DNA of 50,750 nucleotides from Candidatus Methanomethylophilaceae archaeon (lineage in GTDB: Archaea; Thermoplasmatota; Thermoplasmata; Methanomassiliicoccales; Methanomethylophilaceae). Where the stretch lies: assembly GCA_007117455.1 (NCBI GenBank), contig SKGM01000003.1, positions 1 through 50,750 of the forward strand, read 5' to 3'. Made by a program: the position numbers and the translations under genes. Shown one piece after another: positions 45,943 to 48,114 of the stretch; position 1 is the first letter of the stretch; every line of letters starts with the position of its first letter. The notes under the pieces were generated by a model. That model was not told where the DNA came from and searched no databases. It worked only from the letters and a program-made list of their open reading frames with translations.

Positions 45943-46713
45943 GTGATTGGTCAGCCAGTAGGAGCGGACCGATGGGACCGCTCAAGGCGCTTGGGCTGGA
46001 TGGACATGGACTCCATCATCGGCTCCCATTGCCTGGTCGTCGGCGCTGGAGCCCTGGGCAACGAGACCGTGAAGAACCTGGTGCTCTCCGGCGTGGGCAG
46101 GATCACCCTCGTTGACATGGACCATGTGGAGATGAGCAACCTGAACCGTTGTCTTTTCTTCAGTGTCGCGGACGCCCAAGGCAGGGCGGCCAAGGCGGAC
46201 ATGGTCGTCCACGGGGCCGCCCGGATGGCCCCGGACTGTGAACTGAGGCCGGTCGTATCCCGTCTGGAGGATGTTGACCTCGATTGGTCATCCTTCGACC
46301 TGGCCTTCGGCTGCTTGGACAACATCAAGGCCCGTCTGCACCTGAACTCCTACAGCCGCCATCACGGTGTGCCTTACGTGGATGCGGGTACCGATGGCTC
46401 ACGGGGCAAGCTCCAGGTCGTGCTCGGTGACGGCCCCTGCCTCCAGTGCACGATGAACAAGAGCCACTATCAGGTGCTGGAGAGAAGGTTCAGCTGCACT
46501 GGTTCCGACTTCTCCTACTACGAGCCGCCGATGGCCGCCGAGGTGACCACCACCGCCACCATGTCATCCATGCAGGTCAAGGAAGGGCTGAAGATACTGA
46601 GTGGCAGGGAGGATGACTGCATACGGCACCTGTTGTTCTATGACGCCATGCGGAATGAGATGCAGACCTTGGAGGCCGATATCGACCCTGGGTGCCCGAA
46701 TCACGAGATGTAG
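45943..46713 (+). CDS. E1-like (ThiF-fold) ubiquitin-activating enzyme
   Basis: CLVVGAGALGNETVKNLVLSGVGRITLVDMDHVEMSNLNRCLFF; GCLDNIKARLHLNSYS; PCLQC; ERRFSCTGSDF; C-terminal DPGCPNH. GTG start as in ORF track; ATG at 46000 is an alternative. Confidence 0.9.
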   Translation: MIGQPVGADRWDRSRRLGWMDMDSIIGSHCLVVGAGALGNETVKNLVLSGVGRITLVDMDHVEMSNLNRCLFFSVADAQGRAAKADMVVHGAARMAPDCELRPVVSRLEDVDLDWSSFDLAFGCLDNIKARLHLNSYSRHHGVPYVDAGTDGSRGKLQVVLGDGPCLQCTMNKSHYQVLERRFSCTGSDFSYYEPPMAAEVTTTATMSSMQVKEGLKILSGREDDCIRHLLFYDAMRNEMQTLEADIDPGCPNHEM

Positions 46714-46773
46714 TGTCCATGTAATGACCATGTTAAATGCCTGTAGTTGACATGAAAGGTTTGGTGATACGAT

Positions 46774-47013
46774 ATGGAAATCGAAGTGACCATAAGGAAC
46801 GCAGAGAACGGTTCGGTCCTCAACATGGAGTTGGACCCGAACACCACGATTGAGGATGTGATCGAAGGGGCAGCCGAGTTCTGGCACAAGGAGGCTGGGG
46901 CCTATGTGCTCCGCCGGGGCAAGAAGCTGCTCAAGGGACAGTCTACCGTCGCCGATGCCGGACTCAAGAACGAGGACGTCCTGGAACTGATCCCGGACCC
47001 CGAGGGTGGTTGA
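46774..47013 (+). CDS. ubiquitin-like modifier (79 aa) terminating in Gly-Gly
   Basis: MEIEVTIRNAENGSVLNMELDPNTTIEDVIEGA..YVLRRGKKLLKGQSTVADAGLKNEDVLELIPDPEGG: beta-grasp ubiquitin pattern, C-terminal GG. Confidence 0.92.
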   Translation: MEIEVTIRNAENGSVLNMELDPNTTIEDVIEGAAEFWHKEAGAYVLRRGKKLLKGQSTVADAGLKNEDVLELIPDPEGG

Positions 47014-47530
47014 ACTGCCCCTTCCCCCTGATATCCTGGCAGCCCGGCTCCAGAATGAGCTGGAGTCCTGCTCCCGGTATCTGGGGGCGGTGCTCACCCC
47101 CGACGGGCCTTTGAACAGCCTGCCGGTCGAGGTGGAGGTGGAGATGAGGAACGTCGTCGGTCCATCGATGATCGGCGACCGGGTAGTCAAGAGGCGTAAC
47201 CACCGCTTCACGATGAGCATCGACCGGGAGTACCCGTTCGAGAAACCGAGGGTTAGGTGGAGGACCCCAGTGTTCCATCCCAACATAATGATGCCGGAGG
47301 ACGGTGGTTTCGTCTGCATCAAGCAATTGGACGGTTGGACGTTCAACTCCACCCTCCTCTCGTTCATAAAATCCGTCGAGTCGTTGCTGACCAACCCCAA
47401 TCCCCACAACCCATTCGGCACCCCCAGCTGCACCGCCGCTGCCGAGTACTTCAACCGCAACCGCATCGACCACGGGCCGACGATCGTGAGGCCCAGACCC
47501 AGGATAGTGGAGAAATGCCAACAAAGATAA
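47006..47530 (+). CDS. E2-like ubiquitin-conjugating enzyme (UBC fold)
   Basis: YPFEKPRVRWRTPVFHPNIMMPEDGGFVCIKQLDGWTFNSTLLSFIKSVESLLTNPNPHNPFGTPSCTAAAEYF: HPN triad, catalytic Cys (C104), downstream Trp, LLTNPNP. Confidence 0.93.
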   Translation: MVELPLPPDILAARLQNELESCSRYLGAVLTPDGPLNSLPVEVEVEMRNVVGPSMIGDRVVKRRNHRFTMSIDREYPFEKPRVRWRTPVFHPNIMMPEDGGFVCIKQLDGWTFNSTLLSFIKSVESLLTNPNPHNPFGTPSCTAAAEYFNRNRIDHGPTIVRPRPRIVEKCQQR

Positions 47531-48114
47531 CCTCCTGGTCCGAATACCAGGTAAGGGAGCGTCCCCCACCGCCCCCGGAGAGGGTCTCCAGCCATCGTTG
47601 GTTCACGGAGGACATGGACCACATATACCGTGAGGTACGGGATGAGCTGCCCCTCTACGTGCAGCGGACCGCCGAGGAGAAGATGAGGAACCATTCCCTG
47701 GCGGGAATGAGGGCTTCGCATGAGGTGATGGGTCTACTGCTGGGAGGAAGGTTCACCTGGCAGGGGAGGGAGTACGCCCTGGTGCGGGATGTGGCGACCA
47801 CCGAACTGGAGGCCAGCGAGTACCATGTACGTTTCCATGAGGATGGGATGGAGGGCCTATTCGAATCATTGGACGACCTGGACTTCGTGTACTCCATAGT
47901 GGGATGGTATCATTCCCATCCCGGCATCGGATGCTTCATGTCCGATACCGATGTCCGCACCCAGGAGGGTTCCTTCAACAGCCCTCACCACAGCGCACTG
48001 GTCCTGGACCCGGTGAGACGGGAGATGGAGGCCTACCACATGGTGGAAGGGAATGTCGTACTCCGCGCCCTAGGCATATATTGGGACCTACACCAGGACC
48101 CCTATCGCGGTTAG
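47515..48114 (+). CDS. JAMM/MPN+ metalloprotease, Rpn11/CSN5-like deubiquitinase
   Basis: HEVMGLLLGG plus VGWYHSHPGIGCFMSDTDVRTQEGSF (HxHx7SxxD) and SALVLDP. Start set at ATG overlapping the E2 stop. Confidence 0.93.
   Translation: MPTKITSWSEYQVRERPPPPPERVSSHRWFTEDMDHIYREVRDELPLYVQRTAEEKMRNHSLAGMRASHEVMGLLLGGRFTWQGREYALVRDVATTELEASEYHVRFHEDGMEGLFESLDDLDFVYSIVGWYHSHPGIGCFMSDTDVRTQEGSFNSPHHSALVLDPVRREMEAYHMVEGNVVLRALGIYWDLHQDPYRG

Follow-up and report, generated by a model that had tools for sequence, protein, structure and literature searches.

The operon described here, from an archaeon of the order Methanomassiliicoccales, very probably encodes a real and reversible ubiquitin-like conjugation cascade, in which an unlinked RING-like protein would serve as the E3; this joint reading is drawn from predicted proteins and their distribution among genomes. 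The window, namely the whole stretch of 50,750 nucleotides that was analysed, corresponded to contig 22 of a 68%-complete Methanomassiliicoccales metagenome-assembled genome (MAG). Open reading frames for an E1-like adenylating enzyme, a ubiquitin-fold modifier (Ubl), an E2 conjugating enzyme and a JAMM metalloprotease followed one another in that order on the plus strand at 45943-48114 (Table 1), where a preliminary description of the window had placed a co-directional operon. The same description had credited the operon with every step of a ubiquitin cycle except E3. This held for the operon, which contained no E3, but not for the genome, in which a RING-like E3 candidate was encoded elsewhere.

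Table 1. Features of the operon and its surroundings, and the unlinked RING-like gene. Positions are those of the window unless a genome or locus is given.
Feature	Position	Strand	Length (aa)	Basis and remarks
pheS-like gene	42992-44512			PF01409; beyond the trpS-like gene
Tryptophanyl-tRNA synthetase-like (trpS-like) gene	44554..45678	-		PF00579; divergent, conserved upstream neighbour
TATA-like A/T-rich element (aatataatata class)	45909..45919	+		Read from sequence; ~25-30 bases 5' of the E1 start
E1-like adenylating enzyme, single ThiF domain	45943..46713	+	256	PF00899, 7.2e-48
Ubiquitin-fold modifier (Ubl), C-terminus PDPEGG	46774..47013	+	79	AlphaFold, Foldseek
E2 conjugating enzyme; HPN 91-93, catalytic Cys104, Trp111	47006..47530	+	174	UQ_con, 7.1e-14
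JAMM metalloprotease, Rpn11-like	47515..48114	+	199	PF01398 (JAB), 1.4e-12
SIS-domain (HxlB-like) gene	48111..48650	-		PF01380; convergent downstream neighbour
Xylose-isomerase-like TIM barrel gene	48647..49711	-		PF01261; conserved neighbour
RING-like protein, unlinked to the operon	G000:C19:12009-12716 (= L128:1510-2217)		~236	RING-family whole-genome search

Operon and Encoded Proteins

The Ubl and E2 genes overlapped by 8 bases, and the E2 and JAMM genes overlapped by 16 bases. The dN/dS values across the four genes ranged from 0.05 to 0.27, indicating purifying selection on all of them. The TATA-like element is, judging from its sequence, a probable promoter of a leaderless transcript; a scan for sigma-70 promoters and terminators gave matches at approximately chance level. 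The operon was flanked by the trpS- and pheS-like genes on one side and the SIS-domain gene on the other, which agreed with the housekeeping setting noted in the preliminary description. The profile matches of the E1, E2 and JAMM proteins likewise bore out their earlier assignments, and the predicted structures of the E2 and Ubl matched the UBC and ubiquitin folds.

The E1 consisted of a single adenylation domain. The GTG codon at 45943 was preferred as its start over the alternative ATG at 46000 because the stretch before the ATG holds the conserved Arg-finger region. Arg13, the GxGxxGN loop, D58, D60, N66, R69, K84 and D126 were invariant in 26 E1s (alignment A3), as were the zinc ligands C166xxC169 and C251xxH254 and residue Cys185. 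In the MoeB/ThiF family, the thioester cysteine is expected in the crossover loop, and the corresponding position of Cys185 indicates that it is probably the thioester cysteine. The best single-domain PDB scores were obtained for UBA3 and SAE2 (~141 bits), with a lower score for MoeB (124.5 bits); the nearness of the E1, E2 and JAMM to eukaryotic proteins is expressed here in profile scores, not in phylogeny. Neither the separate catalytic-Cys domain nor the C-terminal ubiquitin-fold domain of canonical E1s was found in the operon E1, and the system was therefore classed as a variant and not as the Caldiarchaeum type proper. This MoeB-like architecture counts against an assured transfer of Ubl from E1 to E2, a putative step that needs proof. 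By eye, the longer E1s of other families seemed to carry a tail with a ubiquitin fold, but this reading was unsupported by Pfam and was dropped.

The Ubl alone scored below the Pfam cut-off (ubiquitin, 1e-3; Rad60-SLD, 4e-4). Its AlphaFold model, built with the family alignment, was a confident beta-grasp fold (pLDDT 93.2), and Foldseek matched this model to ubiquitin, SUMO and the crystal structures of Caldiarchaeum ubiquitin, with TM-scores of ~0.8-0.9 by query length, as well as to ISG15. The motif P-D-P-x-G-G was invariant across 30 aligned Ubls. One to nine residues were found beyond the diglycine in 26 of 48 Ubls, as expected of precursors that the JAMM would trim, an example being the ending GGFSGPPY in family f3; the Ubl of the source organism ends at the diglycine and requires no trimming.

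The HPN motif, Cys104 and Trp111 were invariant in 37 E2s (alignment A1), and the best profile matches of the E2 were UBE2A/B. Its AlphaFold model (pLDDT 90.1) was matched by Foldseek to UBE2K, UBE2D3 and UBE2E1 with a probability of 1.0 and TM-scores of ~0.6. The JAMM motif (E70...H133SH135...S143xxD146) was complete, and its E70, H133, H135, S143 and D146 were invariant in 30 JAMM proteins (alignment A4). In PDB profile matches, the JAMM scored 105 bits against Rpn11 and 86 bits against CSN5; the score was 96 bits for the Rpn11-like protein in the entries for the ubiquitin complex of Caldiarchaeum (6fnn, 6fno). In families f37 (L083:7549-8469) and f56 (L095:5760-6791), the JAMM carried C-terminal hydrophobic segments, which are probably membrane segments.

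Distribution and Inheritance

A relative of the E2 was present in 98 of the 300 sampled genomes of the class Thermoplasmata, and UQ_con matches were obtained in 64 of 296 Thermoplasmatota genomes. Candidatus Methanoplasma glyptotermitis was a named carrier more distant from the source organism than its named near relatives, which were Methanomassiliicoccales MAGs. The complete operon, with the same order and strand, was found in most loci examined across the class; the SIS-domain gene was convergent downstream in 31 loci, and trpS/pheS lay upstream in 16. The order and the site were thus common to many families. Moreover, the pairwise distances of the four proteins covaried (Mantel r 0.72-0.84), a value reached in none of 2000 permutations. 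The conserved order and site and the covarying distances fit a cellular system that would have been inherited vertically with losses. A viral origin was rejected, as no relatives on viral contigs were recovered when IMG/VR was searched with the E2 alignment.

Other arrangements were also observed. In families f29 (L070:5811-10879) and f32 (L071:5917-10344), a zinc-ribbon/DUF835 protein ended in the Ubl at its C-terminus, the JAMM was fused to a long coiled-coil-like stretch, and the order was Ubl-E2-JAMM-E1. A different E1-E2-JAMM cluster occurred in other families of the phylum (L079, L080, L085, L087, L088), in which some UQ_con scores were higher and some E1s were longer, at ~420 aa.

Natural Losses of the Enzymes

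The E2 was absent from 23 of the 65 sampled genomes of the source organism's order, and the corresponding sites were located with the TIM-barrel neighbour as the anchor. In genus g6, only the Ubl remained next to the SIS gene, with E1, E2 and JAMM all absent, and a lone Ubl was also retained in genome G232 (family f3). The motif PDPxGG was kept in none of 16 lone Ubls of E2-lacking genomes, whereas it was present, with its diglycine, in 48 of 48 Ubls from loci with enzymes; the Ubls of both groups are related by descent, and the 16 do not amount to 16 independent events. This loss indicates that selection maintains the diglycine only in genomes that have the enzymes. The lone Ubls without the diglycine (L168, L170-L175, L177-L180, L184-L186, L145 and L148) are perhaps retained for a non-conjugating role. 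Furthermore, two genomes of genus g3 contained decayed E1 and JAMM genes without an E2; the E1 no longer had the region of Cys185, and the JAMM no longer had its HSH metal motif.

The RING-Like Candidate E3

A single RING-like protein emerged from the RING-family search in the source genome, and it was composed of one N-terminal hydrophobic helix, the RING-like motif and then zinc ribbons. Its zf-RING_2 and Prok-RING_1 scores were near threshold. Seven of the eight ligands in the pattern C-x2-C-x(about 10)-C-x-C-x4-H-x2-C-x6-C-x2-C were invariant, and the second Cys of C-x-C was missing in genus g16. The PDB matches of the RING-like domain alone were mostly RING E3 ligases, with a best E-value of ~0.001.

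The gene was searched for in the 300 genomes of the class (E below 1e-16). Within the source order, it was present in all 42 genomes with an E2 and in only one of the 23 without; the search model was built from E2-containing genomes and could favour them. The single exception, G268, also lacked the TIM neighbour, and its E2 site probably falls in an assembly gap. The co-occurrence gave a Fisher p of 2e-16 with relatedness ignored, and the independent co-losses numbered ~4, not 22 (genus g6; within g3; g10; and g14/g19 of family f3).

In the source family, the RING-like gene lay shortly upstream of the proteasome alpha gene psmA, with one small ORF between them, and it was absent from this position in all 14 E2-lacking genomes examined. 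In families f2-f5, it lay upstream of an FtsZ-family gene (named by eye) and not of psmA. A divergent hdrA-like gene, also named by eye, was found on its other side in most cases. No RING pattern was detected near the operons of the source order. Very long proteins ending in a RING-like domain (~1450 to >2280 aa), with hardly any other Pfam domains, adjoined E2/Ubl genes at L059:7813-12177, L083:1-6531 and L093:1-6846, the latter two extending past the start of the locus.

On genomic grounds, this membrane-anchored protein is likely to be the E3 of the cascade. The position of its gene before psmA hints that some tagged proteins may go to the proteasome; this link, drawn from gene position in one family, is put forward tentatively.

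Proposed Mechanism and Alternatives

The following enzymatic steps are what we infer from the gene content, the folds, the invariant catalytic residues, the joint inheritance and joint loss of the components, and the disappearance of the diglycine where the enzymes are gone. The single-domain E1, probably a homodimer, would adenylate the C-terminal Gly of ...PDPEGG and would then form a thioester with the Ubl, for which Cys185 is the probable site. From there, the Ubl would pass to Cys104 of the E2, and the unlinked membrane-anchored RING-like protein would act as the E3, directing transfer to targets. The JAMM would cleave the Ubl off its targets; in relatives whose Ubl extends past the diglycine, it would also trim the precursor. 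Some of the tagged proteins could reach the proteasome.

The operon could alternatively encode a sulfur carrier system of the MoaD/ThiS/Urm1 or SAMP kind, in which activation by the E1 would prepare the Ubl to form a thiocarboxylate, with the E2 and JAMM as accessory proteins. The E1 has the length and architecture of MoeB/ThiF and matches the ThiF/MoeB/UbaA families, and the JAMM matches the desampylase family below the cut-off. However, every equivalog match of the operon E1 was far below its cut-off, including that to NF047750 (UbaA type; 83 bits against a cut-off of 450), and the source genome encodes a second, MoeB/UbaA-like E1 apart from the operon (L119:1489-2244). Sulfur carriers need no E2, whereas the HPN motif and Cys of the E2 are invariant here and the E2 was lost together with the other components; a sulfur carrier is thus very unlikely. 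An antiphage conjugation system related to Bil/Bub or CBASS is, if anything, slightly more improbable. It would account for the same four activities as in BilABCD (PMC11354881) and for the weak PADLOC E1-E2 matches of the E1 domain, but PADLOC returned no match for the Ubl or E2, the E1 has one domain instead of two, and the E2 lacks the CEHH motif, as the residues that follow Cys104 do not include E/H/H with the published spacing. The operon is, moreover, inherited in synteny between housekeeping genes, and no viral copies were found; these observations favour the cellular rather than defensive role that had been suggested.

The cascade could also be real and the RING-like protein not its E3, if the latter covaries with the E2 for another reason, such as lifestyle-driven genome change. 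Most of the losses fell within a few lineages of one family, as this explanation would predict, and RING-like domains also occurred in long proteins of E2-lacking families outside the source order, such that the RING/E2 pattern was less clear there. Nevertheless, the members of genus g3 carried either both the RING-like gene and the E2 or neither. In addition, a RING-like-domain protein was encoded directly upstream of the Ubl, E1 or E2 in families f37, f51 and f54 and divergently beside the E2 in f11, and the predominance of E3 RINGs among the PDB matches points in the same direction. Covariation for such another reason is therefore considered unlikely, although less so than the two other alternatives, and a conjugation cascade with the RING-like protein as its E3 is preferred.

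Comparison with Known Systems

Archaeal E2-dependent ubiquitin-like conjugation is usually attributed to the Aigarchaeota and the Asgard lineages, and the literature consulted agrees with the preliminary description, which had named Caldiarchaeum and the Asgard lineages as the best-known sources of operonic E2 systems among archaea. An apparently vertical, phylum-wide system in the Thermoplasmatota, with its one-domain E1 and unlinked RING, would widen the base for reconstructing the rise of ubiquitin signalling. Its carriers include host-associated methanogens (a Methanoplasma MAG), its small proteins are open to reconstitution, and the enzyme-less sister lineages provide natural controls; experiments could thus be done on a simple system related to that of eukaryotic ubiquitin. 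It is conceivable, but somewhat doubtful, that the Thermoplasmatota system is ancestral and cellular, with a membrane-anchored RING E3 tied to the proteasome locus, and not derived from Asgard archaea or Aigarchaeota. If so, RING-ligase ubiquitin signalling with proteasome coupling would predate the Asgard/TACK branch and survive in growable methanogens.

The likeness to the eukaryotic ubiquitin, NEDD8 and SUMO cascades, in terms of profile scores, was that of the E2 to UBE2A/B, the E1 to UBA3/SAE2 and the JAMM to Rpn11; in contrast to these cascades, the present set is minimal, with one gene each and a single-domain E1. The haloarchaeal SAMP/UbaA/HvJAMM1 system shares an archaeal Ubl, a MoeB-like E1 and a JAMM. 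SAMPs have no E2, whereas the present operon has one, and the UbaA-like E1 is separate in the source genome. BilABCD comprises Ubl, E2, JAB and E1 genes, with a two-domain E1 (one inactive and one active adenylation domain) and a CEHH motif in the E2 (PMC11354881). The four gene types are thus the same, but the E1 architecture, the E2 motif and the taxonomic pattern differ, and no defence context was found here.

No archaeal E2 was reported in 2010 by Makarova and Koonin (PMC2948915). A system of this kind from the Methanomassiliicoccales or Thermoplasmatota was not found in the open-licence literature, although the supplementary 'Cluster III' of PMC5654768 may include it. In Asgard archaea, operons combine components of the Ub, E1, E2 and RING types (PMC5654768), and the likeness of the shared Ub, E1 and E2 operon components to the present ones is by published description, not by sequence comparison. 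Among described systems, the closest is the operon of Caldiarchaeum subterraneum (Aigarchaeota), which encodes an E1, Ub, E2, Rpn11-like JAMM and small RING, and in which the Ub precursor is trimmed by the JAMM (Hennell James 2017, PMC5654768). The Ubl model matched the ubiquitin of this system, and the JAMM matched its Rpn11-like protein. By comparison, the operon described here encodes an E1 of 256 aa that consists of one adenylation domain, and its JAMM gene lies inside it and is co-directional; the RING gene of the source order is unlinked to the operon, the Ubl has the acidic tail PDPEGG, and the phylum is a different, euryarchaeal one.
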